64,000 nucleotides of DNA, taken from positions 1,054,001-1,118,000 of the forward strand of contig NZ_JAEMNW010000002.1 of the NCBI RefSeq assembly GCF_016481275.1. The letters run 5' to 3'. Numbering within the stretch: position 1 is the first letter of the stretch; each line of letters starts with the position of its first letter. Source of the stretch: Antrihabitans auranticaus (GTDB lineage: Bacteria; Actinomycetota; Actinomycetes; Mycobacteriales; Mycobacteriaceae). Made by a program: the position numbers and the translations under genes. Below are positions 7,252 to 45,615 of this stretch, one piece after another. Under the pieces are notes generated by a model. The model saw only the letters and a program-made list of their open reading frames with translations, was not told where the DNA came from and did no database searches.

Positions 7252-8018
7252 GTCGCGGAAGGACCCTCGCTGTCCGTGCTGTCGTCGGTTGTCGTCTCTA
7301 CGGCCGCCGCCGGCGTCAGTACGGATTCGAGTGCAGCGCCGTTGATCCGGCGGAAAGCGCGCCGCGGGCGGGTCTGTTCGAGGACAGCCACTTCCAGCGC
7401 CGAAACGCCGATCGTTCGCTTTTCCTTGTCGGTGCTCTCGGCGACTCCGGCTTGCAGCGCCGCGACGGCGATCCCGATGCCGGCGTCCAAGCTGAGACCC
7501 TGCTTGTAGGAGCCCTTCAGCGCGGTCAGGATCGGCTCGGTCGTACCGCCCATGACGACGTACTCGCGCTCGTCGACGATCGAGCCGTCGTAGGTGATGC
7601 GATAGAGCTGCGGCTGCTTCGGATTCTCCGGATAGCCGACCTCAGCAACACAGATCTCGACCTCGTACGGCTTGAGCTGATCGGTGAAGATCGCGCCGAG
7701 GGTCTGCGCATACGCGTTCGCCAACGTCCGGCCTGTGACGTCCCGCCGGTCGTATGCGTATCCGCGGGTGTCGGCATGCACGATCCCCGCTCGCCGCAGG
7801 TTCTCGAACTCGTTGTACTTGCCGACCGCGGCGAAGCCGATGCGGTCGTACAACTCGCTCACCTTGTGCAACGCGGTGGACGGATTCTCGGCGACGAACA
7901 GCACGCCACGGTCGTAGGTCAGCACCACGACGCTTCGACCGCGGCCGATGCCCTTGCGCGCCAGTTCCGAGCGATCGCGCATGATCTGCTCGGCAGACGC
8001 GTAATACGGCAAGGTCAT
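7248..8018 (-). CDS. prcA: 20S proteasome alpha subunit
   Basis: Non-catalytic outer-ring subunit of the actinobacterial 20S proteasome; it gates entry and receives the Mpa C-termini. The 256-residue product starts [23 protein letters not shown], the gating N-terminus and H0 helix of PrcA, followed by the alpha-type fold ([26 protein letters not shown]). The acidic, low-complexity C-terminal tail ([12 protein letters not shown]) is usual. Its ATG overlaps the prcB stop (4 bases), so the two core subunits are translationally coupled. The stop overlaps that of the convergent PAP2/DGK gene. Confidence 0.97.
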
Positions 8019-8875
8019 CGTGCTGTACCTTCCTGTTCCGTCCGGTCGGCAATAACGGCACGCGCAACTTCTTCGGCGCGATCCCCCGAAATTTCGACTG
8101 CACCGTCGGCCGTGATGTACACCGCCGCCGGGTAGATCCGGCGGGCCAGGTCGGGTCCGCCCGTTGCCGAGTCGTCGTCGGCCGCGTCGTAGAGGGATTC
8201 GACCGCGACGCGCAGGGCCTCGTCGACCGTCAGGCCCGGCCGATAGAGCTTCTTGATCGCAGACTTCGCGAACATCGAGCCCGATCCGACCGCGTGGTAA
8301 CCCTTTTCCTCGTTCCGGCCGCCGACCACGTCGTAGGAAACGATGCGGCCACCGTTGCTGGGGTCGGGATCGGACGTGTCGTAGCCGACGAGCAGCGGAA
8401 TTGCCGCGAGCCCCTGCATCGCCGCAGGCAGATTGCCACGCACCATCGAGGAGAGCTTGCTTGCCTTGCCGTCGAAGGTCAGTGGAATGCCTTCGATCTT
8501 CTCGTAATGCTCGAGTTCCACGGCGAACAGCCGAACCAACTCGATCGCGATTCCGGCAGTCCCCGCGATGCCCGCCGCCGAGTACTCGTCGGTGACGTAG
8601 ACCTTCTGGACGTCGCGATTGGCGATCAGGTTACCCATCGTCGCGCGCCGGTCACCGGCGAGCAGTACGCCGCCGGCGAAGGTCAGCGCGACGATCGTCG
8701 TCCCGTGCGGCGCGATATCGACGGCTGACGGCGCGTCGGATCGACTGAAGCGGTTGACGGGCAACAGTTCCGGAGCATGCAGCCGCAGGTGTTCCGATAG
8801 CGACGAGAGGTTGGACCCGAGGTGCAACCCGGAACTGAAACCGATCGACGGAAAGCCGGAGCCGTCCTGTGTCAC
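8015..8875 (-). CDS. prcB: 20S proteasome beta subunit (catalytic)
   Basis: Catalytic inner-ring subunit. A propeptide of 58 residues precedes the processing site HG|TTIV, so Thr59 becomes the N-terminal nucleophile after autocleavage. The Thr-protease core follows ([21 protein letters not shown], with the catalytic Lys region in the downstream beta strands). The GTG start at 8875 overlaps the pup TGA (GTGA), and the end overlaps prcA, giving a tightly coupled pup-prcB-prcA operon. Confidence 0.97.
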
Positions 8876-9066
8876 TGGCCGCCCTTCTGCACGTAGGCGC
8901 GAACGAAGTCCTCGGCATTCTCCTCGAGCACGTCGTCGATCTCGTCGAGCAGGTCGTCGGTTTCCTCGGCGAGCTTCTCGCGACGTTCCTGGCCCGCACT
9001 GCCGTCGCCGACCGGACCCTCGTCCTCGTCGCCGCCACCGCTGCGCTTGGTTTGTTCCTGCGCCAT
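8872..9066 (-). CDS. pup: Prokaryotic ubiquitin-like protein Pup
   Basis: Small disordered modifier that is attached to substrates and threaded into the proteasome. The product is 64 residues from ATG 9066; the frame is open further upstream to 9165, but AGGAGGT 8 bases before ATG 9066 settles the start. It is Glu/Asp-rich, with the central Mpa-binding coiled segment ([21 protein letters not shown]), and ends in KGGQ. The C-terminal Gln must be deamidated to Glu by Dop before PafA can use it, and dop is the next gene upstream. The 148-base gap to the dop stop probably contains a promoter. Confidence 0.97.
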
Positions 9067-9214
9067 AGCAGCCGACCTCCTAATTACCGTGCATTCGCAA
9101 ATGCAACTCTTGTCTGACGTATCGAAACTCGTCTGGTCGAGCTGCGAAACGACTCTGGACCTCAACCCTACCGATCTGGACCGCCATAGTGGTGGAAAGA
9201 TCGGTTCGGCGCGG

Positions 9215-10714
9215 TCACGTCGTCAGCTGATCGACCAGCTCCGCAGCAGTGCTGACCGAGTCCAAAAGCTTTCCCACGTGGGCTTTACTGCCTCGATGCG
9301 GTTCCAGCGTAGGGATTCGGACCAGTGAATCGCCACCCAGATCGAAGATTACCGAGTCCCAGCTTGCGGCCGCGATGTCGGCACCGAATCGGCGCAGACA
9401 CTCGCCACGGAAGTACGCGCGCGTATCGGAAGGCGGGTTCGTCATCGCGTCGAGCACCTGCTGCTCGCTGACGAGTCGCTTCATCGAGCCACGCGCGACA
9501 AGTCGGTTGTACAAACCCTTTTCGAGCCGCACGTCGGAGTACTGCAAGTCGACGAGCTGCAACTTGGGCGCGGCCCAACCGAGCCCCTCGCGGTTGCGAA
9601 TCCCCTCCAGCAGTCGCAATTTGGCGGGCCAGTCCAGCAGGGTCGCGCACTCCATCGGATCGCGTTCGAGCAGATCGAGAACCATCGCCCAGTTCTCGAG
9701 GATGTCGTTCGCGCGCGCATCATCGGAACTGTTCTTCGCCACGAACTTCGCGGCGCGCTCCAGGTAGATCCGCTGCAGCGCAAGGCCGGTCAGCTCCCTG
9801 CCGTCGGCAAGAGCAACCGCGCGCCGCAGTGTGGGGTCGTGGCTTATCGCATGAACCGCTGTCACCGGTCGGGCCAGTTGCAGGTCGGAGAGGTCGACGC
9901 CTGCTTCGATCAGGTCCAGCACCAAGGCGGTCGTACCCACCTTCAGGTAGGTGGACATCTCCGCGAGGTTCGCGTCGCCGATGATCACGTGCAAGCGCCG
10001 GTACTTGTCCGCGTCGGCGTGGGGTTCGTCGCGGGTGTTGATGATCCCGCGTTTCAGCGTCGTCTCGAGCCCGACCTCGACCTCGATGTAATCGGACCGC
10101 TGCGACAACTGGAAGCCCGCTTCGTCACCGGACTGGCCGATGCCGACCCGGCCGGAACCGCAGATCACCTGGCGGGACGCGAAGAACGGCGACAAACCGA
10201 GAATGATCGAGTTGAACGGCGTGTCGCGGCTCATCAGGTAGTTCTCGTGCGTGCCGTAGGAGGCACCCTTGCCGTCGACGTTGTTCTTGTAGAGGTTGAG
10301 TCGCGCCGTCCCCGGCACGCTCGACGCGTACCGTGCGGCCGCTTCCATCACGCGCTCACCGGCCTTGTCCCAGATCACGGCGTCGAGCGCGTCTGTGACC
10401 TCGGGCGCGGAGTACTCCGGATGGGCGTGGTCGACATAGAGCCGAGCGCCGTTGGTGAGGATCATGTTTGCGGCGCCGACCTCGTCCGCGTCGATCACCG
10501 GCGCGGGCCCGCTGAGCCGGCCGAGATCGAATCCACGGGCGTCACGCAACGGCGATTCGACCTCATAGTCCCATCGTGTGCGCTTGGCGCGTGGCACTCC
10601 CTCCGCGGCCGCATACGCGAGCACGGCTTGCGTGGAAGTCAGGATCGGGTTCGCTGAGGCCTCGGTCGGCGACGAGATGCCGTACTCGACCTCGATGCCG
10701 ATGATTCGCTGCAT
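9215..10714 (-). CDS. dop: Pup deamidase/depupylase Dop
   Basis: Homologue of PafA that deamidates Pup-Gln to Pup-Glu and removes Pup from proteins. The start is ATG 10714 ([12 protein letters not shown]), although the frame is open to 10852; this gives 499 residues, close to the M. tuberculosis enzyme. ATP/metal-site glutamates lie at 8 and 10. The Dop-specific loop (about 42-80, [20 protein letters not shown]) and Asp95 in [14 protein letters not shown], the proposed nucleophile region, are intact. [21 protein letters not shown] and [17 protein letters not shown] are also present. It is transcribed toward pup-prcBA and diverges from the DUF418 gene. Confidence 0.97.
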
Positions 10715-10794
10715 AGACCTGAGCCTATTCGACTCGCGCGCGGCGCCTCGCGCCGACCGAATGTCATACCCGCGATCATCCTTTCGGCTGATGT

Positions 10795-12060
10795 GTGGAC
10801 GCGGTGCCGGTTGGCACGTTGGAGGGTATGGCAGCGGTTCGAATTCAGGCACTCGACGTCCTTCGCGGCATCGCCATCCTCGGCACCCTGGCCACGAACA
10901 TCTGGATCTTCACCGACCCCGAGGGCCTGGTCGGATACATCAACGGCACAGCAACGCTCGACGGCGCCTGGCAGTGGATCGAGAAGGTGCTCCAGCAACT
11001 CTCGCAAGGCAAGTTCCTCGGTTTGCTGACCATTATGTTCGGGATCGGCCTTGCGATTCAACAGAATTCGGCGGTCCGGCGCGGTCGGCGCTGGCCAGGG
11101 AACTACCCGTGGCGAGCCGGCCTGCTGTTCCTCGACGGCCTCGTCCACTTCGTGCTCGTCGTCGAGTTCGACGTGCTCATGGGCTACGCAGTGACCGGTC
11201 TGGTGGTCGCGTTTCTGCTCGCGACTTCCGAACGCGCACAACGCCGTTGGATGTGGATGACGGCAGTGGTACACGTGGCGTTCCTGTCGCTCGTGACCGT
11301 CGCGATACTCACCGCGCCCGAGCCGGAACCACCGAAACCGCTCGACCCCAACCTCTACGCGGACGGTTCCTGGGTCAGCCTCGTCGGATTCCGGCTGGAG
11401 AATGCTGTCCTCTTCCGCATCGAAGCGGTGTTCATCTTTGCGATGTCGATCGCGCTGTTCGTTGCGGGCGCCCGGCTCTATCGCGCCGGCGCGCTCGGCC
11501 CGGAGGGTGGCGCAATCCGGCGCCGTTTGCTGATCGCCGGCGCCATCGCGTGGCCGATCGACATGGCGCTCGGCCTGTTCGGTGGCGACGCCGGACTCAT
11601 CCTCAGCCGGTACGGCACCGCGGCAATCGTTGCTCTCGGACTCCTCGCCCTGGTGGCCGAGTTCTACGTCCGGCGCGAACGCATCGGCGTGGTCGGGCGG
11701 CGATTGTCCGACGTCGGCCGAATGGCGCTGAGCAGCTATGTCCTGCAGAACATCGTCGCGTCGGCCGTGTGTTACGGCTGGGGCCTCGGCGTGGCGGCTC
11801 GCCTCACCGGCAATGCGCGGGTCCCTGTCACCGTCGGCGTCTATCTGGCGGTCTGCGCAATCGTTGTCGCTTTCGCGCACCTGTGGCTACGGCGCTTCCA
11901 ACGCGGACCGGTCGAGTGGCTGTGGAACGAGAGCTACCGCGCGATCACTGCGCGAGTTGGAGTTGGACGTAGTACGGCGCATCGAGCGCAAGCAGAATCT
12001 GGCGAACACCCAACGGCGCCCAACTCACGTCAGGATCGTGAATCACCTGCGGCGCGGTGA
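10795..12060 (+). CDS. DUF418/YeiB-type polytopic membrane protein
   Basis: Predicted inner-membrane protein with about eight hydrophobic helices. The N-terminal signature [20 protein letters not shown] and the C-terminal [22 protein letters not shown] are typical of the DUF418 family, some of whose members are linked to acyl or small-molecule transport. Function is unproven. The start is uncertain: GTG 10795, or ATG 10828 directly behind a GGAGGG that sits unusually close. After the normal family end (about residue 385) the frame runs on for some 35 polar residues, antisense to the neighbouring reductase gene, so the two genes overlap tail to tail by 116 bases. Confidence 0.78.
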
Positions 12061-34527: not shown

Positions 34528-37017
34528 ATGCGCAAACTACTGGTCGTCGGAAACGGTATGGCCGGTGCTCGAACTGTCGAGGAGATACTTTCACGCGGGG
34601 GGCGTGAGCTGTTCGAGGTCACGATGATCGGCGACGAGCCCTACGGCAACTACAACAGGATCATGCTGTCCCACGTCCTGTCGGGCGAGACCGACTTGAC
34701 CGAGCAGGGCCTCGACGACTCGGAAATGATGCTCAACCCGATGAGCTGGTATCGGGAAAACGGCGTGAAGCTGCACGTGGGCGACCGCGCACTGCAGCTT
34801 GACCGTTTCGCCAAACAGGTCACGTGCGAGAGCGGCCGTGTCGTCGATTACGACGTGCTGGTCGTGGCGACGGGCAGCAACACCTTCTTCCCGAACATGG
34901 ACGGACTGCGCGAGCCGGACGGCCGACTGGCGCGCGGGGTCTTCGGCTTCCGCACGATCGCGGACACGAACGGCATGCTGCAGATGGCGCAGGCGCAGGA
35001 CGACGTCACCGCGGTCGTTATCGGCGGCGGTCTGCTCGGCCTCGAAGCGGCGTACGGGCTGCGGATCCAAGGTCTCAACGTCAGCGTCGTGCACTCCCCC
35101 GGCCACTTGATGAACCAGCAGCTCGACGCGCGCGGTGGCCGCTTGCTGCGCAACAAGATCGAGCAGCTCGGCGTCGGAGTGCACACCTCGAAGCGCACAA
35201 CTTCTGTCGTCCGCGACGAGCACGGCGACGTGACCGGTGTCGGCTTCGCAGACGACTCATCGCTGCCGGCGGACATGGTTGTGGTCACCGCGGGCATTCG
35301 GCCCAATGTCGAGTTCGCCCGCGCGGGCGGATTGGTGGTCGAGCGCGGAATCGTCGTCGACGATCAAATGCGCTGTGAAGACGAAGGTTCCGTGTATGCG
35401 GTCGGCGAATGCTGCCAGCACCGCGGCGAGCTCTACGGCCTGGTTGCACCTCTCTGGGAGCAGGCGAAAGTCTTGGCGGAGGTATTGACCGGCGCGAATC
35501 CCGATGCTGCGTACCAAGGTTCGCGGTCGTCGACCAAACTGAAGGTCGCAGGTATCGACGTCGCGGCGATGGGTGTGCAGGGACCCGAACTCGACGACGA
35601 CGAGTTCGTGCAGTACTTCGAGCCCAGTACCGGCACGTACAAGAGCGTCGTCGTACGCGATGGCAAGCTCATCGGTGCAACACTTCTCGGTGACGTCAGC
35701 AAGATGGGTTTCCTGTCGCAGGCGTTCGACGACAAGGTTCCGCTCCCCGCCGACCGGATCAGCATGCTGTTCGACCTCGGAACTGCCGATGCCGCACCGA
35801 ACATCGCCGATCTCCCCGACGAACTGCAGGTCTGCAACTGCAACGGTGTCACCAAGGGCCAGATCGTGGCGTGCGTACACAACGGCGCAAGCTCTGTCGC
35901 CGACGTCGTCGCAAAGACCCGCGCCGGCAAGGGCTGCGGTTCCTGCAAGGGTCTCGTCGGGGACATCGTCGCGTGTGCGGCGGGCGGTGCCTTGGTCGCC
36001 GACCCGTCCGCCGACTGGTACGTGAAGGCGATTCCGTTGACGAAGTCGGAACTCATTGCCGCCGTGCGCGATCAGGGCCTGCGTTCGGTATCGGAAGTGT
36101 TTGCCGAGCTGGCGCCCGAGGGTGAGGACGCGACCGCGAAGATGCCGCTGGCCTCCCTGCTGCGCGTCGTGTGGGGTCCGGACTGGGTGGACGAGCCCGG
36201 CGCGTTGTTCATCAACGATCGCGTCCACGCGAATATTCAGCGCGACGGCACGTTCTCCGTCGTGCCGCAGATGAAGGGTGGCGTGACAACACCCGACCAA
36301 CTGCGCAGGATCGCTGACGTCGCGGACAAGTACAACGTGCCACTCGTCAAGGTCACCGGTGGGCAGCGCATCGATTTGCTCGGCATCAAGAAGGAAGACC
36401 TGCCGAAGGTGTGGGGCGATCTCGACATGCCGTCGGGCTACGCGTACGGCAAGAGCTTCCGAACAGTGAAAACCTGTGTCGGCACTGACTTCTGCCGCTT
36501 CGGGCTGGGCGATTCGACGGCGTTGGGTATCGCCATCGAGGAACGGTTCCAAGGCTTGGAGACGCCGGCGAAGCTGAAGCTCGCCGTCGCCGGTTGTCCG
36601 AGAAACTGCTCCGAGGCACTGTGCAAGGACTTCGGGGTGGTCGCCGTCGGTGACGGCCGATGGGAGATCTACATCGGCGGCGCGGCCGGCGCGCACATCC
36701 GCAGGGGGGATGTGCTCGCAACCGTCGACTCGCCCGAAGAAGTTCTCACACTGGCCAGCCGATTCATCCAGTACTACCGCGAGAACGCCAAGTGGCTCGA
36801 ACGCACCTACGACTTCGTCCCGCGGGTGGGAATCGAAGAGCTGCAACGCCTCCTGGTCGCCGACGATGCCGGCATCGCCGCGGGGTTGGAAGAGCGGATG
36901 CAGACCGCCGTCGACGGCTACCGAGACCCGTGGCAGCAACGAAACGCGCCGCTGTCACCCGCACAGTTCACACCCTCGCTGCCCTTGCTCCCGTTGCCGC
37001 AGGTACCGGTCCGATGA
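34528..37017 (+). CDS. nirB: Assimilatory nitrite reductase [NAD(P)H] large subunit
   Basis: Reduces nitrite to ammonium with NAD(P)H in the cytoplasm. 829 residues. The FAD Rossmann fold (VVGNGMAGARTVEEI) and NAD-binding AVVIGGGLLGLEAA lie in the first 300. The BFD-type [2Fe-2S] cysteines are Cys436/Cys438 (CNCNG) and Cys470/Cys473 (GCGSC). The siroheme/4Fe-4S cysteines are Cys650, Cys656 (CVGTDFC), Cys690 and Cys694 (CPRNC). All cofactor ligands are present. ATG 34528 gives the family N-terminus MRKLLVVGNGMAG. It overlaps nirD (ATGA). Confidence 0.96.
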   Translation: MRKLLVVGNGMAGARTVEEILSRGGRELFEVTMIGDEPYGNYNRIMLSHVLSGETDLTEQGLDDSEMMLNPMSWYRENGVKLHVGDRALQLDRFAKQVTCESGRVVDYDVLVVATGSNTFFPNMDGLREPDGRLARGVFGFRTIADTNGMLQMAQAQDDVTAVVIGGGLLGLEAAYGLRIQGLNVSVVHSPGHLMNQQLDARGGRLLRNKIEQLGVGVHTSKRTTSVVRDEHGDVTGVGFADDSSLPADMVVVTAGIRPNVEFARAGGLVVERGIVVDDQMRCEDEGSVYAVGECCQHRGELYGLVAPLWEQAKVLAEVLTGANPDAAYQGSRSSTKLKVAGIDVAAMGVQGPELDDDEFVQYFEPSTGTYKSVVVRDGKLIGATLLGDVSKMGFLSQAFDDKVPLPADRISMLFDLGTADAAPNIADLPDELQVCNCNGVTKGQIVACVHNGASSVADVVAKTRAGKGCGSCKGLVGDIVACAAGGALVADPSADWYVKAIPLTKSELIAAVRDQGLRSVSEVFAELAPEGEDATAKMPLASLLRVVWGPDWVDEPGALFINDRVHANIQRDGTFSVVPQMKGGVTTPDQLRRIADVADKYNVPLVKVTGGQRIDLLGIKKEDLPKVWGDLDMPSGYAYGKSFRTVKTCVGTDFCRFGLGDSTALGIAIEERFQGLETPAKLKLAVAGCPRNCSEALCKDFGVVAVGDGRWEIYIGGAAGAHIRRGDVLATVDSPEEVLTLASRFIQYYRENAKWLERTYDFVPRVGIEELQRLLVADDAGIAAGLEERMQTAVDGYRDPWQQRNAPLSPAQFTPSLPLLPLPQVPVR

Positions 37018-37376
37018 GCGTCGATACGTGGGTTCCGGTGGGCTCGGTCGCCGAACTGACGCCCGGTGAGGGTCGCACGTACGTGGTCGACGGGCGTCAG
37101 GTCGCGGTGTTCCTCCTGGGCGATGGAACGGTGCGGGCCACCGACGCGACGTGCCCGCACAAGGGCGGTCCGTTGGCCGATGGCCAGACCGACGGCAAGG
37201 TCGTCGTGTGTCCTCTGCACCTGTACGCGTTCTCGCTCACGGACGGCACCTGCGGCGACGGGATCGATTCGGTCAGGGTGTACGAGGCGCGCGCAGTGGA
37301 CGGCGTGATCTCCGTGGGGCCTGCGGCCCCGCGCGCGGTTGACGAGTCCCTGGCCTCTCCTACCGCGCACGGGTAG
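37014..37376 (+). CDS. nirD: Nitrite reductase small subunit, Rieske type
   Basis: 120-residue partner of NirB. It is a Rieske-type barrel with both ligand pairs intact: CPHKGG and CPLHLYAF (C-x-H and C-x-x-H). The start ATG 37014 overlaps the nirB TGA by 4 bases. The next gene (jetA) begins only 38 bases after the nirD stop with no hairpin between, so read-through into the Wadjet operon is plausible. Confidence 0.94.
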   Translation: MSVDTWVPVGSVAELTPGEGRTYVVDGRQVAVFLLGDGTVRATDATCPHKGGPLADGQTDGKVVVCPLHLYAFSLTDGTCGDGIDSVRVYEARAVDGVISVGPAAPRAVDESLASPTAHG

Positions 37377-37414: not shown

Positions 37415-38890
37415 GTGCCCGAACCCGCCGACCGACTCCTTCGCGACGAGCGGCTCCGGCTGTTCTCGTTTGCGACGGCGGAGAAGCGGGCCGACTATCT
37501 CGTGGTCCTCAGGGCCTTCGACAACGCTCGGACCAGGTACGTTGTCCTCCTCCATGCCGGTGATGTCGAAGAGTTGGTTGCGCGAGACGGTGGCGAACTG
37601 AGCGCCAGCGAAGCGACTCCCCTGCTCGAACAGCTGCACACCTGGGGCGTTCTCGAGCGGAGTTACGACGGCAGCCGCGCCGCGAACCTCGCCGAATATC
37701 GCAACCGGCATTACGTCTACCAGTTCGCCCAGGCCGGGTTCGAGGCCTACCGCGCGGTGGAGGCAGTCCTCGATACGCGCGTCGAAGATGCCGCCCTGTC
37801 GCGACTCGTGCTGCCCGAGCTGCTCGCCGACCTCGAGCAACTCGCTGCGGCCAACCGGGCAGCCGACGCCGACGCCGTCTACCGCAAACTCAGTCGGCTC
37901 GACTCGGCACTGTCGGACATGGCGACCCGCGCGGCCCATTTCTATCTGTCGCTCGGTGACCTCGTCCGCACTACCGAGGTGACGCCAAAATCGTTCTTGG
38001 CCCACAAGGACGCCTTGTTGTCGCACATGCGCGAGTTCAGCCTCGACCTCGCCCGGTATGCACCCAAGCTCGCCGCGGCGATCGGTGCCGTCGAGGCAAC
38101 GGGCCTGGCACGCATGCTGGATCGAGCGGCGGCCAGTGACGAGCGGGTACTGCTGTCGTTGGACGAACGTCGCGAAGACTGGGCCGCCCGTTGGCTCGGC
38201 CTCACGAAATGGTTCGTCACCGCGGAAAGCGAACTGAGCGAATCGGATCGGCTTCGCGAGGGCACGATGAGTGCGATCGCGGCCGTCTTGTCGTTGCTGC
38301 GCCGCGTGACCGAGAGTCGCAAGGGTGGTGTCAGCCGCGAATCGGCACTGCGGCACCTCGCGGGCTGGTTTGCTGCCGCACCGACGGACGACGCCGCCCA
38401 TGCACTGTTCGGCGCCGTATTCGGGCTGACGAAGCCGCGCCACCTTGCCCTCGAACACCCCGATGCAGAGTTGGTTCCTTGCACGCGATCGTGGTGGGAG
38501 GCGCCACCTGTCGAGATCTCGCGCACACTCGCAGAGACCGGTCGCGCCCCAAGCCCGGGCGCACCTGGCCGCATCCAGCGCAATGACGCCAGTATTCGGC
38601 GCCTTCGCGACGCCCAACTGCAAGCGCAACGGTCGCGGGCGGAAGCGGCGGCGTCACTGCGGGCGGGCGGTGTCTACGACCGAATTCTCGACGAGGAGGA
38701 GACGGAAGTGTTGCTCGGCCTGCTCAACGCAGCCCTCGGTGCGCGTGTTCCGGTGAGTGGTCGCACGCAAGGCTCGACCGGTTCCGGAAGCGGCGTAAAG
38801 CTCACTGTCACACCGCATCCCCGATCGACGATCGTGCAGACCGCTCGCGGAGTCCTGCATCTGGATGGCCTCGAGGTCAGCGTCTCGTGA
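37415..38890 (+). CDS. jetA: Wadjet type II component JetA (DUF2397/TIGR02677)
   Basis: 491-residue kleisin-like subunit of a Wadjet plasmid-defence SMC complex. Family features: N-terminal winged-helix start RLRLFSFATAEKRADYLVVLRAFDNAR, then LLEQLHTWGVLERSYD and EYRNRHYVYQFAQAGFEAYRAVEAVL. A long helical middle contains HFYLSLGDLVRTTEVTPKSFLAHKDALLSHM. The C-terminal LHLDGLEVSVS follows a variable basic segment. The start is GTG 37415. It overlaps jetB by 4 bases (GTGA). Assignment rests on recognition of the family pattern plus the neighbouring jetB/jetC. Confidence 0.85.
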   Translation: MPEPADRLLRDERLRLFSFATAEKRADYLVVLRAFDNARTRYVVLLHAGDVEELVARDGGELSASEATPLLEQLHTWGVLERSYDGSRAANLAEYRNRHYVYQFAQAGFEAYRAVEAVLDTRVEDAALSRLVLPELLADLEQLAAANRAADADAVYRKLSRLDSALSDMATRAAHFYLSLGDLVRTTEVTPKSFLAHKDALLSHMREFSLDLARYAPKLAAAIGAVEATGLARMLDRAAASDERVLLSLDERREDWAARWLGLTKWFVTAESELSESDRLREGTMSAIAAVLSLLRRVTESRKGGVSRESALRHLAGWFAAAPTDDAAHALFGAVFGLTKPRHLALEHPDAELVPCTRSWWEAPPVEISRTLAETGRAPSPGAPGRIQRNDASIRRLRDAQLQAQRSRAEAAASLRAGGVYDRILDEEETEVLLGLLNAALGARVPVSGRTQGSTGSGSGVKLTVTPHPRSTIVQTARGVLHLDGLEVSVS

Positions 38891-40206
38891 CGGTCATACC
38901 GCCTCTTGCGCTCGGCGATTATCAACGTGCGGCGCGGATCATTCTGGCTAATCACCTTGTGACGCCGCAGTATCCGGACCGCATTGCCTTGCCGCTGTTG
39001 CGCCGCTGGGCGACCGAGTTGCGCGCCGACATGCTCGACCTCTTCGGCTATCGGCTCGAAGTCACCGAGTCCACGGCACGACTGTTCCCAGTCGCGGACC
39101 GCCTCGATCCGACCCAACCGGCCCGCACAGCGACGGACCGCATCTTCGACCGGCGTCGATATGCCTATCTCACTCTGGCATTGGCAGCACTCGGTCGTGC
39201 CGGCGATCAAATTACGTTGTCCGAGTTGGCCGCCCATGTCGCCGCCGAAACGGCACGGGTTCGGGGACTCGAACTTGCCACCGAGCGGTCCGCCGACCGT
39301 GACGCTTTCGTCGACGCGGTTGGCTGGCTCGCGACTCGCGGGGCGATCGCATTGGCAGACGGCGACGCCGGCGGTTGGGCATCCGACCCCGAATCCGGCG
39401 AGGCTTTATACGACATCGACCGAACGGTCGTGTTGGCCCTGTTCCGTCCGCCGCGCGCACTGCAGCATCTGCACAGTGTCGCAGGCCTTCTCGGCAACGA
39501 GGACGGTGCGACGCACGACGGACACGAACCTGCTCGTCGCGTACGCCGGGCGTTGGTGGAAAGGCCTGTCGTCTACGTCGACGACCTCCAACCGGAAGAG
39601 CGCGCACTGTTGACGACGGGGCGCGTGCTCCGTGACGTCGAGCGCCTCACCGGGCTACACGCCGAGCGCCGCGCCGAGGGTGTCGCCCTGATCGATACGT
39701 CGGGCCGGTTCTCCGACACCCGGTTTCCGAGCACCGGCACTCTTGCCCAGGTCGCGTTGCTGCTCGCCGGGGAAATCGCCGAGCGCGTGCTCGATCCGGA
39801 CGTCGAATCGGCGCTGCTCGAGCATGCCGCCGACGACGGCATCCGCGACCAACTCGATTCGGCCATCCCCGATTCGACGGTGTTCGAGGCGCTCGCGGAA
39901 GTGGCCGAACCCGAGGCCACGGCGATCACGCCGGGCGCGTTTCCCTTCGTCGAGGACTCCTGGCTGGCCGAGACGGTGCACGAACTCGTCGCGCTGTACG
40001 GCAAAACCTTTGCCGCGCAATGGCAGGCCGATCCGGACGGGCTGCGTGCCGGGGCCGTTGCGCTACTCGTCCGACTGCGACTTGCCGCGCAGGTCGACGG
40101 CGGCATCCTCGCGCTGCCCGCGATTGCGCGGTACCGCGGTGTCGTCGTCGATGTCCGCTCGCGACCGCCGGAATCCGTACTCTTTGCCGAAAGCGAGGCG
40201 ATATGA
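38887..40206 (+). CDS. jetB: Wadjet type II component JetB (DUF2398/TIGR02678)
   Basis: 439-residue KITE-like subunit. It begins (GTG 38887) with LALGDYQRAARIILANHLVTPQYPDRIALPLLRRWATELRADMLDLFGYRLEV, characteristic of the DUF2398 family. RRRYAYLTLALAALGR follows, then the helical wing region and C-terminal LALPAIARYRGVVVDVR. It overlaps both neighbours by 4 bases (GTGA with jetA, ATGA with jetC), so the three proteins should be made in fixed proportion. Confidence 0.85.
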   Translation: MTVIPPLALGDYQRAARIILANHLVTPQYPDRIALPLLRRWATELRADMLDLFGYRLEVTESTARLFPVADRLDPTQPARTATDRIFDRRRYAYLTLALAALGRAGDQITLSELAAHVAAETARVRGLELATERSADRDAFVDAVGWLATRGAIALADGDAGGWASDPESGEALYDIDRTVVLALFRPPRALQHLHSVAGLLGNEDGATHDGHEPARRVRRALVERPVVYVDDLQPEERALLTTGRVLRDVERLTGLHAERRAEGVALIDTSGRFSDTRFPSTGTLAQVALLLAGEIAERVLDPDVESALLEHAADDGIRDQLDSAIPDSTVFEALAEVAEPEATAITPGAFPFVEDSWLAETVHELVALYGKTFAAQWQADPDGLRAGAVALLVRLRLAAQVDGGILALPAIARYRGVVVDVRSRPPESVLFAESEAI

Positions 40207-43200
40207 CTCGAAGCGCCAGGTTCCGGCCGACCCGCGCCGGGATCGTCAATCTCTGGGACTACCGCGATCAGGAGTTCTCCTTCGCCGACGGACGACTCGT
40301 GCTGCGCGGCCCCAACGGCTCGGGCAAGACGAAGGCGCTCGAAGTCTTGTTTCCGTTCGTGCTCGACGGCCGCATCGAGCCGCGACGGCTGAATCCCTTT
40401 GCGGGCGAAGAGCGCACGATGAAGTCGAACCTCCTGTACCGAAAGCAGGAATCGGCGCACTCGTATGTATGGATGGAGTTCTCTCGGGGCGACCGCGACG
40501 ACCCGGAGGCCGTCACTGTCGGAATCGGCATGCGGGCGATCCGGTCGAGCGACAAGGTCACCCGGTGGTACTTCGTCGCGGACGGTCGTGTCGGCGTGGA
40601 CTTTTCGCTGCTCGGGCCCGACGACCGGCCACTGACCCGCAGGCAGCTTTCCGACGAGTTGGGCTCCGACGCGATCGTCGATCGTCCCGTGGATTACCGA
40701 GCAGCGATCGACGCCCGATTGTTCGGACTCGGCACCCAGCGCTACGACCAGCTGATCAACCTGATTCTCACCTTGCGTCGCCCGCAGCTCGCCAAGAACT
40801 TGGACCCGAAAGGGTTGTCGCAGGCGCTCACCGACGGGTTGCGCCCGCTCGACGAGCAGCTGGTTCTGGATGCAGCGCGGTCGTTCAGCGACATGGAAGA
40901 GGTCGCCCGCACGCTCGAAGGGCTCGTCGCAGCCGACAACGCCGCGAAGCGGTTCGTCGAGATCTATGCGAAATATCTTGGTGTGCAAGCAAAGACGGAC
41001 ATCGACCAGGTGGCCCGGCGACTGACGTCCGTCGAGCACGCAACCACTGCGGTGTTCGCGGCCAAAGCGCTGCGGCAGCGCAGAGAAGGCGAGCGGGTTG
41101 CTGCCGACGAGCGCCTGGACGCGGCTGATCGGGCTCTCGACCACGCCACCGGCGACCGCGACACGCTGCTTCGATCCAGCGCGTACGAAGGCAAGCAGCA
41201 GCTCGACGACCTCGCCGAAGCCGTTCGCAAACTGGAACTTTCGGTCACCCAGCAGGCAGACAAGGCGCGTAAGGCACAAGAATCGCTGGCACAGCGGACC
41301 ATCGACGTGGACCGAACGCGGACCGGTATCCGCGAGGCCGCGGCGGCCCTCGCGAGAAGCGACCAAGAACTCGAGAAGGCGGCAGCCGAAGCGGGAATCA
41401 GCTGGACCGCACCGCCGTCGCACGCACGCGCCGACCAGATCATGGCCGCCGTTCGCGCCCATGCCGAACAACGCGACGGTGACATTCGCGCCGTCCGAAA
41501 GGCTCTCGCCGTCGTGGATTCGGTAACAGCTGAGCGCGTCCGGACGGAGCGTTCAGCCGTGCGCGCGCACGAGCACGCCGACCAGGCCATTGCCGATGTC
41601 GCCGCGGCGGAGTCCGCGGTGGCGGTCGCCCGCGGCGAATGCGCCGCCGCGCTGCGGGATTGGTGGCTCACGCATTCCGAACACTACGGCGACGCAGCCG
41701 AGGAAGTCTTCGCTGCGCTCGACTCCGCTCTGTCTCGGGTCGGTGATGACGATGCACCGTCGCTTGCGGAAGTGCTTGCCGAACTGGCCGAGCCGATCGC
41801 GCAAGCAACGCAGATCGCACGGAGCGAAGCACGCCGGAATGCCGAGTTGGGCGCCGCCGAACTGTCCGCCGTGACTACGCAACGCGACCGCGTGGCCGCT
41901 GAAACAGACGACGCGCCTGCAGCTTTCGCAGCGCGCGTCGGTTCGCGCGACGACCTGCCCGGTGCACCGCTTTGGCAGCTGGTTCGGTTCGCCGACCACG
42001 TCGACTCTGCTGGCGCAGCAGGCATCGAGGCAGCCCTGCACGCGGCGAACATCTTGGATGGCTGGGTGTCGGCCGACCCGCCGATCTCGTTCGAATCCGA
42101 ACAGTTCCTCGTTGCCCTGCCCGAGCCGGACAGGCCGATCGGACCGACATTGGCCGACGTTCTCGTCGTGGACGACGGCGCTTCCGTTCCGGCGGATCTC
42201 ATAGTCGGGGTGCTGAAGTCGATTGCTCTCGACGGCAACGGGGTCAGCGTGCTTGCGGACGGCAGTTTCCGCCAGGGCGTCCAGATCGGTCGGCATACGA
42301 AGCCCGAGGCAGAGTTCATCGGCGCAGCAGCGCGCGCCCGTCGTCGCGTCCACCGGATCGGCGAGCTCGATGCGGCCAGCGCGACACTGTCTGCGGCGAT
42401 CGACGCCGCCCGGGTGGACGAATCAACGTCAGCAGCGACTCTCACGCAAATATCTTCGGCTGCGAAGGCCTTGCCTCGGACAAACGGCATTCAGGTCGCG
42501 CTACGGAAAGTAACCGAAGCTGCCGGCGCACTTCGTTCGCGCACCGAGGCGGCGACCGTCGCCGATCGCGAACTGGACCACGCCGTCGCCGAATTGTCAG
42601 CTGCGCAGAAGCGGCTGCGCGCTGCTGCGGTGGAGCATCGTGCACCGACCACGGCACGCGAGCTGGACGCACTAGCAGCCGCCATCCGGCACTTCGAGAA
42701 CACGGGCTCCGCGCTGTTGCGGCGGCGCGGCGAGTACGACCGGGAAGCCGAGCGCGAGCTCGAAGCGCAGCATCGCCTGGATGAGGCACGCGGCCTCGCC
42801 GAAGAACTTGCCGAAGAACAGGCCATCGCGCAGGAAAGTTTCGAGCAGCAGCGCCACAAACTGGACACTCTGAGCGAATCGCTGGGTGCGAGTAGCGATC
42901 AGATCGACGCCGAACTCGATCGCGCCCGAAACCGGATCGAGGCGTGCAAGGCGGAACAGCGGGCGGCGCGAAAGGCCGATCGCGAGGCGGGCGAAGCGGT
43001 CGGGCAGGCCGAAGGTGCGTATCACACTGCCGTCGAAGGTATTCGGAATGCGTTGACCGAGGCGCTCGCCGACGCGCGCCGCCTCGAGCCGTACGCACAG
43101 CGCGACATCCTTGCCCTGCTCGCTGTTTCGGCCGAATGCGCGTGGCCGTCGAGCGACGCGGCGTGGTCGACGGTGGATCAACTGCTGTACCGAATCGAAG

Positions 43201-44348
43201 CGGCAACCGGCCCAGACGATTTCGTGAGTGTTCTGCCGCCAGAGGTGCACGAACTGTTCACCGGCCTCGCAACCGCGACCGACGCTGTGCGCGTCACCGA
43301 CGCAGCCCGGAAACCGACACGCACCGCGGTCACCTCCGCTTTGCAGGAGTTCGACGCACAACTTGCGGCATCGGGCCAACATTTCCGGCTGAACTGGGAT
43401 GCCGCCGACGGTCTTACGGTCGTTCGCGTCCAGGACGAACAAGGCATGTCGTCGATGGCCGATTTCGCAGCACGCATCGATCGCGCGCGGCGGGAACAGG
43501 AGTTGCTGCTCACCGATGCCGAACGGCGCATTCTCGAGGACGCGCTGTTGACCGGACTGGCGCAGCAGATCCACGAACGAACCGTCGACGCACGGGATCT
43601 CATCGCACGCATGGGGTCGGAGATGAAGCAGCGCCGGATGTCGTCGGGCAACACGATCGGCGTGCACTGGGTTCTCGCCGACTCCCTCGACGAGGATGCG
43701 CGCGCCGTGTGCAAGTTGCTCGACCGGGACGCGTCGGTCCTCAACGCCGACGAACTCTCGCGGATCCGTGCGCATTTCGCGTCCGAGATCCGCTCCGCCC
43801 GCGCGGCGCATCCGGAGCGCTCATATCCCGAAATCCTTTCGGCAACACTCGATTATCGGCAATGGCGGGTATTCTCGTTCACGCTCATCTCCGGCAGTGG
43901 CACCGAAGACCGCCTCACGGTCGCGCGGCACAGCGCGCTGTCCGGCGGCGAGCAGTCGGTCTCGCTGCATCTGCCACTTTTCGCCGCTGCCCACGTCATG
44001 CTGTCCTCCGCGGATCCGCATTCACCACGGTTGCTTGCCCTGGACGAGGCGTTTGCCGGCGTCGATGACAACGGTCGGAGCGAATTGCTCGGGCTCAGTG
44101 TGCAATTCGATCTCGACCTGTTCATGACCGGCTACGACCTGTGGATCACCTACGCGCACGTACCGGGCTGCGCGCACTACGACCTGGCGCACTCGACGGC
44201 CGAAAACACGGTCAGCGCAGCGCTATTGGTCTGGGACAGCGGAGAACTCCTGGCCGAGCACGACGGTTCCGACCTTGCCGCCGCGCTGGGTTCGCCTCTG
44301 CGCCGCCGCGTGCCGACTCCGGTCGAAGGCGGGTTGGAGTTCGACTGA
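40203..44348 (+). CDS. jetC: Wadjet type II SMC-like ATPase JetC (TIGR02680)
   Basis: 1381-residue SMC/Rad50-type ATPase from ATG 40203; the frame is open upstream to 40020 inside jetB. Walker A is GPNGSGKT (36-43) after RPTRAGIVNLWDYRDQEFSFADGRL. The ABC signature LSGGEQ is at 1246-1251 and the Walker B end ALDEAF has Asp1281-Glu1282. Between them lie two long Ala/Glu/Arg-rich coiled-coil arms with a less helical hinge near the middle (about 600-760). Both ATPase halves are intact, so it looks functional. The gene ends 25 bases before the convergent mshC stop; no jetD (DUF2399 nuclease) follows. Confidence 0.92.
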   Translation: MTRSARFRPTRAGIVNLWDYRDQEFSFADGRLVLRGPNGSGKTKALEVLFPFVLDGRIEPRRLNPFAGEERTMKSNLLYRKQESAHSYVWMEFSRGDRDDPEAVTVGIGMRAIRSSDKVTRWYFVADGRVGVDFSLLGPDDRPLTRRQLSDELGSDAIVDRPVDYRAAIDARLFGLGTQRYDQLINLILTLRRPQLAKNLDPKGLSQALTDGLRPLDEQLVLDAARSFSDMEEVARTLEGLVAADNAAKRFVEIYAKYLGVQAKTDIDQVARRLTSVEHATTAVFAAKALRQRREGERVAADERLDAADRALDHATGDRDTLLRSSAYEGKQQLDDLAEAVRKLELSVTQQADKARKAQESLAQRTIDVDRTRTGIREAAAALARSDQELEKAAAEAGISWTAPPSHARADQIMAAVRAHAEQRDGDIRAVRKALAVVDSVTAERVRTERSAVRAHEHADQAIADVAAAESAVAVARGECAAALRDWWLTHSEHYGDAAEEVFAALDSALSRVGDDDAPSLAEVLAELAEPIAQATQIARSEARRNAELGAAELSAVTTQRDRVAAETDDAPAAFAARVGSRDDLPGAPLWQLVRFADHVDSAGAAGIEAALHAANILDGWVSADPPISFESEQFLVALPEPDRPIGPTLADVLVVDDGASVPADLIVGVLKSIALDGNGVSVLADGSFRQGVQIGRHTKPEAEFIGAAARARRRVHRIGELDAASATLSAAIDAARVDESTSAATLTQISSAAKALPRTNGIQVALRKVTEAAGALRSRTEAATVADRELDHAVAELSAAQKRLRAAAVEHRAPTTARELDALAAAIRHFENTGSALLRRRGEYDREAERELEAQHRLDEARGLAEELAEEQAIAQESFEQQRHKLDTLSESLGASSDQIDAELDRARNRIEACKAEQRAARKADREAGEAVGQAEGAYHTAVEGIRNALTEALADARRLEPYAQRDILALLAVSAECAWPSSDAAWSTVDQLLYRIEAATGPDDFVSVLPPEVHELFTGLATATDAVRVTDAARKPTRTAVTSALQEFDAQLAASGQHFRLNWDAADGLTVVRVQDEQGMSSMADFAARIDRARREQELLLTDAERRILEDALLTGLAQQIHERTVDARDLIARMGSEMKQRRMSSGNTIGVHWVLADSLDEDARAVCKLLDRDASVLNADELSRIRAHFASEIRSARAAHPERSYPEILSATLDYRQWRVFSFTLISGSGTEDRLTVARHSALSGGEQSVSLHLPLFAAAHVMLSSADPHSPRLLALDEAFAGVDDNGRSELLGLSVQFDLDLFMTGYDLWITYAHVPGCAHYDLAHSTAENTVSAALLVWDSGELLAEHDGSDLAAALGSPLRRRVPTPVEGGLEFD

Positions 44349-44373
44349 CCTGACCTCCGGTCGCTCGGTCGAT

Positions 44374-45615
44374 TCAGCGAACAGGTACGCCCAGCAACGC
44401 GTCGACTGCGTCGGCAATCTGGCCGGGCGCGGCCGTGTCCGAACCACCGTAGTTCAATGCCTGCGTGGCCCAGCCATCCACCGCATCAAGAGCTTTGGGT
44501 GTGTCCAGATCGTCGGCGAGATGCTGGCGAAGGCGAGCGATCACGTCGTCGGCGACCGGTCCGGAAGGCAGTGCAGCGGCGTCGCGCCACAACGCCAACC
44601 GTTCCTGGGCGGTTTGCAGCACCTCGGCGGTCCAGGCGCGGTCCTGCCGATAGTGCTCGGCCAGCAGGCCGAGGCGAATGCCGCGTGGGTCTACCTGCTG
44701 GCACCGCAACTTCGAAACGAACACGAGGTTGCCCTTGCTCTTGGACATCTTCTCGCCGTTGAGGCCGATCATGCCGGTGTGCACGTAGTGCCGCGCGAAA
44801 CGACGACCAGGAGAGATGCATTCGGCGTGTGCGGCCGAGTACTCGTGATGCGGGAAGATGAGATCGCTGCCGCCGCCCTGGACGTCGAAACCGGACCCGA
44901 TCCGGTTCAAAGCAATTGCCGCACACTCGATATGCCAACCCGGACGGCCCGCACCGAATGGCGATGGCCACGAGGGTTCGCCGGGTCGTTGCGCTTTCCA
45001 GACCAATGCGTCGAGTGGATCACGCTTGCCCGCGCGCGTCGGATCGCCACCGCGTTCGGCGAACAGACGGTCCATGGTCTCGCGGTCGTAGCCGGACTCG
45101 TAGCCGAACTGCTCGGTCGCGTCGGCGCGGAAGTAGACATCGGGGAACTCGGCATCGTCGACCACGTAGACACTGCCGCTGGCCTGAAGTTTTTCGATGA
45201 ACTCGACGACTTCGTTGATCGATTCGACCGCACCGATGTAGTCGCGCGGCGGCAGAACCCGCAACGCCTCCATGTCCTCACGGAACAGCGCCGTCTCGCG
45301 CATGCCGAGAACCATCCAGTCCTCGCCGTCACGGTCGGCACGCTCGAAGAGTGGGTCGTCGACGTCGGTCACGTTCTGTACGTAGTGCACGTCATGACCG
45401 GCGTCGCGCCAGATCCGGTTCACCAGATCGAAGGTCAGATAAGTCGCGGCATGGCCGAGATGCGTCGCGTCGTAGGGCGTGATCCCGCAGACGTACATGG
45501 TGGCTGTCTTGCCTGGCGTGACGGGTCGAACCTGCCGATCTGCGGTGTCGTACAACCGCAACGGCGGACCGACGCCGGGAACAGACGGGACGGCGACGTC
45601 GGACCAAGACTGCAT
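44374..45615 (-). CDS. mshC: Cysteine--GlcN-inositol ligase MshC (mycothiol synthesis)
   Basis: Joins L-cysteine to GlcN-Ins, the third step of mycothiol synthesis. It is a class I cysteinyl-tRNA synthetase homologue lacking the tRNA-binding domain, at 413 residues. Zn-ligand Cys43 lies in [16 protein letters not shown] (HIGH-like motif). The adenylate site has [12 protein letters not shown] and [11 protein letters not shown], and the KMSKS loop is [15 protein letters not shown]-like [11 protein letters not shown] is present. It is last in a minus-strand run from uppP. The cysQ gene that I recall next to mshC in M. tuberculosis is not here. Confidence 0.95.

Follow-up and report, generated by a model that had tools for sequence, protein, structure and literature searches.

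Related systems

Most work on Wadjet systems has so far been done on type I (PMC10586767). In type II, JetABCD, nvJET of Neobacillus vireti cleaves naked circular DNA (PMC12647877). Our analysis concerns the jetABC operon of Antrihabitans auranticaus, found in a stretch of 64,000 nucleotides (contig NZ_JAEMNW010000002.1, positions 1,054,001 to 1,118,000), which as a whole is called the window here. This operon is similar to type II JetABCD in its gene families and in the order A, B, C, but JetD, the DUF2399 nuclease, was found neither in the operon nor in the genome. PDB entries 9qe0 and 9qe1 are probably the N. vireti type II complex, judging from the title of a reference in PMC12647877, and the 9qe0 chains named JetC and JetA are similar to JetC (expectation value, E, 2.5e-75) and JetA (E 9.7e-15) of the window. 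For JetB, no solved relative was found at E <= 0.01.

A Wadjet-like set of a structural maintenance of chromosomes (SMC) protein, a kleisin and a KITE subunit without nuclease is also present in Pseudomonas aeruginosa, whose MksBEF is thought to be derived from JetABCD by loss of JetD (PMC10586767). Chromosome organisation by MksBEF has been measured in P. aeruginosa (PMC7485682), whereas for JetABC of the window such a role is inferred. The window likewise holds an operon of SMC, kleisin and KITE genes without nuclease, as in condensins of the nuclease-free Mks/Muk type. However, the sequence families differ, and the loss here concerns a type II system and is found repeatedly in one family. 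The proteins do not belong to the MukBEF/MksBEF families: JetC matches the type I JetC models only weakly (E 1.6e-14 and 1.2e-4), and no match to a Muk family was reported at E <= 0.001. MksBEFG of Corynebacterium glutamicum, which we take to be a fairly close relative of the host, is also an actinobacterial Wadjet but carries the nuclease MksG, unlike the window.

The category "Wadjet other" of PADLOC takes incomplete Wadjet and MukFEB-like sets (PMC9252829); it is a detection bin and not a described biological class. Wadjet plus other systems have been reported in 73% of Rhodococcus genomes (PMC10482375), and a text search of that paper returned no mention of JetD. No description of type II operons lacking JetD was found in the accessible open-access literature, subscription papers such as a 2025 paper on type II structure being outside its scope.

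The jetABC operon and the absence of jetD

The gene content of the operon is certain (Table 1). The best PADLOC models for all three proteins are those of type II, namely JetA2 (E 2.1e-180), JetB2 (E 4.9e-199) and JetC2 (E 0). JetA also matched PF09660 (E 8.8e-141) and, over cut-off, TIGR02677; JetB matched PF09661 (E 1e-72) and, over cut-off, TIGR02678; and JetC matched TIGR02680 over cut-off (E 1.6e-216). The kleisin and KITE roles of JetA and JetB are assigned according to PMC10586767. An earlier note, made from the letters of the window alone, had proposed a type II jetABC set without jetD, and the family models, the PADLOC matches and the absence of DUF2399 agree with it. Its finer statements also held: the genes overlap by 4 bases (GTGA for jetA/jetB, ATGA for jetB/jetC), the stop codon of mshC lies 25 bases after jetC, and JetC keeps its motor motifs, with Walker A (GPNGSGKT, residues 36-43), the signature LSGGEQ (1246-1251) and Walker B (LLALDEAF from 1277, with D1281 and E1282).

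Table 1. Coordinates of jetABC and neighbouring features in the window
Feature	Position	Strand	Remarks
jetA (type II; DUF2397, TIGR02677)	37415..38890	+	491 amino acids, GTG start, kleisin-type subunit
jetB (DUF2398, TIGR02678)	38887..40206	+	439 amino acids, GTG start, KITE-type subunit
jetC (TIGR02680)	40203..44348	+	1381 amino acids, SMC ATPase, ATG start
jetC-mshC gap	44349..44373	.	between convergent stops; slot of jetD in jetD-bearing relatives
mshC	44374..45615	-	TIGR03447 (E 3.3e-216); convergent neighbour, given for context; outside the system
nirB and nirD (nitrite reductase)	34528..37376	+	upstream neighbours, also in part of the Rhodococcus-type loci; context

JetD was searched for in the window and in the whole genome (6.5 Mb in 24 contigs, given as 99.94% complete). 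A profile of 17 JetD rows from relatives gave no match at E <= 10 in the six-frame translations of the window, in line with the earlier observation that the window has no DUF2399 gene. In the whole genome there were no matches to PF09664 (DUF2399), none to PF09983 (JetD_C), for which JetD_C of C. glutamicum MksBEFG was detected as a positive control, and none to TIGR02679 at E <= 10. An alignment profile of 11 JetD rows returned from the genome only a stretch of 12.9 bits (E 0.09). The same profile recovered the jetD of genome G002, which is from the genus of the window, at E 1.4e-162, and is thus sensitive enough for jetD within the genus. A JetD encoded elsewhere, one of the possibilities first considered for this operon, is therefore now unlikely.

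Residues 84-95 of JetB form a (D/E)RxFDRxRYAYL stretch, conserved across type II JetB whether jetD accompanies it or not. As a motif, with no homology implied, it is similar to IFDR of type I, for which contact with JetD has been reported (PMC10586767). As for the neighbours, nirB was recognised by TIGR02374 and nirD by a Rieske match and a TIGR02378 match below cut-off. A scan for promoters and terminators gave no signal above shuffled sequence.

Integrity of jetABC in loci without jetD

Integrity was examined in the 84 distinct rows of the JetC tree, 66 without and 18 with jetD. Left out of the counts were 13 duplicate JetC and the jetD-bearing L161, the sole row removed beforehand for a JetC shorter than 1300 amino acids; L160 was left out of the JetC tree, and L134 and L158, whose jetC is cut at a contig end, never entered. 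Loci L082 and L139 were counted as jetD-less with contigs ending less than 600 bases after jetC; in G030, the genome paired with L139, the family-wide search gave no DUF2399 match.

JetC has at least 1340 amino acids in 66/66 jetD-less and 18/18 jetD-bearing rows, and JetB at least 400 in all rows of both groups. JetA reaches at least 440 amino acids in 63 of the 66 jetD-less rows, the three exceptions lying at contig starts, and in 16 of the 18 others, where two are interrupted. Counting duplicates, Walker A and LSGGEQ are identical in 74/74 jetD-less rows, and Walker B reads LLALDEAF in 60 and LLGLDEAF in 14. The ratio of non-synonymous to synonymous substitution rates (dN/dS) of JetC, in pairs chosen by hand, was 0.03-0.15 in all 16 jetD-less pairs (median 0.10) and 0.06-0.15 in seven jetD-bearing pairs (median 0.06); the two pairs of the window itself are near saturation (dS 1.2-1.8). 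The maintenance of jetABC without JetD is thus well supported.

A trace of a lost JetD interface was sought in alignment columns fixed in jetD-bearing rows and changed in at least 4 of 14 jetD-less lineages. Such columns numbered 20/596 in JetC, 7/191 in JetB and 9/245 in JetA (L069 and L071 not counted) and were scattered; the comparison is uninformative in the absence of an interface structure, and the interface could not be mapped, since the JetD profile found no solved structure at E <= 0.01.

Broken frames were also seen where jetD is present: the jetA frame is interrupted in the jetD-bearing L069 and L071, and jetA of the jetD-bearing genome G286 has one in-frame stop. In L161, a divergent jetD-bearing operon (7656-11688) has its jetC in two pieces.

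Distribution of jetA and jetD

In the family of Nocardia and Rhodococcus, 301 genomes were searched. DUF2397 was matched in 131 of them (129 over cut-off) and DUF2399 in 45, with both present in 39. Of the 129 genomes with jetA over cut-off, 90 have no DUF2399 and 74 have neither DUF2399 nor JetD_C, a JetD_C protein being present in 16 of the 90. The comparison of relatives that the earlier note had called for thus found both states, and the jetD-less one is common in the family (Table 2).

Table 2. Genomes with jetA and with DUF2399 in genera of the family
Genus	With jetA	Also with DUF2399
g6	29	22
g23	26	2
g22	23	10
g27	18	2
g10	14	0
g21	6	0
g14	4	0
Genus of the window	4	1

In the phylum sample of 296 genomes, 24 outside the family matched DUF2397. 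All 19 with a near-complete jetA have DUF2399, which lies on the contig of jetA at a distance of up to about 8 kb in 15 and on another contig in four; none of the five with partial or below-cut-off matches has it. Because the 19 near-complete systems all have DUF2399, a complete jetA without JetD looks like a trait of the family of Nocardia and Rhodococcus.

We took g10 as Prescottella and g22 as Nocardia, and in these two genera jetA is near-core. Prescottella has jetA in 14/14 genomes and DUF2399 in 0/14. Among 148 Nocardia genomes, 131 have a jetA match (125 a close JetA, six a distant one only) and 17 have none. DUF2399 occurs somewhere in 44 of the 125 genomes with a close jetA, but in none of the 125 within 20 kb of it on the same contig, as counted in partly fragmented assemblies. 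The Nocardia jetD adjoins a second type II jetA of about 30% identity, as seen in L168 and, by coordinates, in G065, G321 and G412 among others. Divergent type II jetABC without jetD was also found in g14 (L162, L163 and L164) and, in G145, as an additional copy (L167). Among the genomes linked to divergent jetD-less operons, a JetD_C protein is listed for G061, G077 and G145 and not for G043. In a few dozen Nocardia genomes (e.g. G370, G220 and G392) the close JetA match starts at about residue 53-61 of the JetA of the window, and the N-terminus differs.

Position and probable loss of jetD

Many Rhodococcus-type loci have the common order nirBD - jetABC - (jetD) - mshC. In related loci that have jetD, the gene stands in the slot between jetC and mshC or immediately downstream of jetC, while in the window, L072, L091, L094 and others mshC directly follows jetC. 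This position of jetD makes jetABCD the probable ancestral operon. Two genomes of Rhodococcoides kyotonense illustrate both states: L072 is the jetD-less sister of the jetD-bearing L110, and its jetABC is intact. All four genomes from the genus of the window have jetA, and one has DUF2399. This genome, G002, was taken as Antrihabitans stalactiti by its identical JetC, and G003 as A. stalagmiti. The A. stalactiti locus (L065/L143) is jetABCD, with a 4-base overlap of jetD and jetC and no mshC within its 10-kb flanks.

The earlier note had set against its proposal a downstream jetD deleted together with disabling mutations in jetABC. The first part stands, as jetD occurs at the slot and was probably lost; the second does not, as the 66 loci have no disabling changes. 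The JetD profile of 17 rows found no remnant, not even a weak match (E <= 10), in any jetD-less locus searched.

No conserved replacement gene follows jetC: by simple codon-score gene calls, the downstream families differ between jetD-less groups. The commonest next gene on the same strand, family F41, is first in five loci, and many loci have the convergent mshC instead. Nine loci have a longer jetC-mshC gap, filled by unrelated genes such as a homocysteine S-methyltransferase gene (L062) or a DUF559 gene (L068). The latter (L068:14222-15217) is restriction-endonuclease-like, occupies the jetD slot in reverse orientation and clusters with no other called gene; by eye, L074 and perhaps also L122 have shorter frames like it in this position. 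Long perfect inverted repeats were also seen by eye directly after the jetC stop, within the first 50 bases, in L091, L117 and L094. Their sequence differs between species, and they could be either a transcript end (terminator) or an insertion scar.

Possible function of JetABC without JetD

The explanation we favour, with a probability of about 0.6, is that JetA (kleisin), JetB (KITE) and JetC (SMC ATPase) form the motor of a type II Wadjet system, that an ancestral jetD disappeared cleanly from the operon, and that JetABC is kept as a working SMC complex without nuclease, one of the options that the earlier note had listed. It would bind and clamp DNA, extrude loops with ATP, and release or hold the DNA without cutting. 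A useful non-cutting job is probable, because many related bacteria keep the motor without the cutter. The most likely job would be that of an accessory chromosome organiser, like P. aeruginosa MksBEF; non-cutting restraint of small circular DNA would come second.

Several points weigh against this explanation. In C. glutamicum, MksBEFG with its nuclease has been reported to act on plasmids and not in organising the chromosome (PMC7083940); for JetABC of the window, a role on the chromosome would therefore mean a change of job. The somewhat higher median dN/dS of JetC in the jetD-less pairs (16 against seven) may reflect a slight relaxation. In the wider genome searches, two jetA of the jetD-less type, in G192 (Prescottella, 79% complete) and G404, hold an in-frame stop, which is a caveat to the integrity described above; like the breaks in L069, L071 and G286, these could be either sequencing errors or real. 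The FDR motif of JetB is kept in 75/76 jetD-less rows, duplicates included, as if a partner site were still used. Simple vertical loss is at odds with the JetD tree, which joins A. stalactiti with L124; holding A. stalactiti JetD with Rhodococcoides-type rows, as in the JetC tree, was rejected (approximately unbiased test, AU, p 0.004, with long branches).

JetABC might instead remain a defence against plasmids that does not cut them: small circular DNA would be compacted or held, and in this way silenced or lost. In the window the sensor half of Wadjet is intact, and compaction of circular viral DNA by Smc5/6, with silencing but no cleavage, is proposed in PMC10586767. However, in Bacillus subtilis all four subunits are needed to suppress plasmid transformation (PMC10586767), and the near-core distribution is unlike that of sporadic defence genes. 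We consider this explanation unlikely, though worth keeping in view.

It is rather less probable that another nuclease, with its gene elsewhere, acts in trans in place of JetD. The retained FDR motif, the JetD_C protein in 16 of the 90 jetD-less genomes and the nuclease-like gene in the jetD slot of L068 are consistent with such a partner, but that gene is alone in its cluster, no gene is conserved after jetC as far as the crude gene calls show (F41 included), and the genome of the window (G000) has neither a JetD_C nor a DUF2399 match.

If the jetD-less state were ancestral in the family, jetD would have been gained several times. On the JetC tree, made by a quick method, at least five changes suffice for the jetD label under unordered parsimony, whereas counting losses only requires 15, or 12 with weak branches lumped. 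The tree is weakly rooted: L156, which serves as the root, has no jetD, and when divergent outgroups are used, the root of the JetC tree for the jetD-bearing rows falls within the Rhodococcoides-type rows. The jetD of A. stalactiti, with no mshC near its operon, may be re-acquired, because its placement in the JetC tree was rejected on the JetD tree; by our arithmetic this would drop about two losses near the window. But DUF2399 is found in all near-complete systems outside the family, and jetD sits at the same jetC-mshC slot in distinct lineages (Rhodococcoides-type rows; L090 and L155). We infer that jetD was lost here rather than gained by others, and regard ancestral absence as improbable.

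A decaying remnant, in which jetD went first and jetABC is to follow, was another of the options first listed and is now very improbable: jetD is gone, 17 Nocardia genomes have no jetA match and six a distant one only, dN/dS is slightly raised and jetA of G192 and G404 has stops, but JetC and JetB are full length in all 66 distinct jetD-less rows, the motifs are intact, dN/dS is far below 1, one genus has jetA throughout, and broken jetA also occurs with jetD present.

For annotation, JetABC sets of Rhodococcus and Nocardia that now count as Wadjet defence may leave plasmids uncut. Direct tests are possible in close relatives that differ in jetD at one locus, such as L072 and L110. For the family as a whole we suggest tentatively, at somewhat short of even odds, that the nuclease of a type II plasmid-defence SMC complex has been lost repeatedly, and that the complex, now nuclease-free, has become near-core. 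If true, this would provide many natural replicates of the switch from defence to housekeeping that has been proposed for MukBEF/MksBEF.

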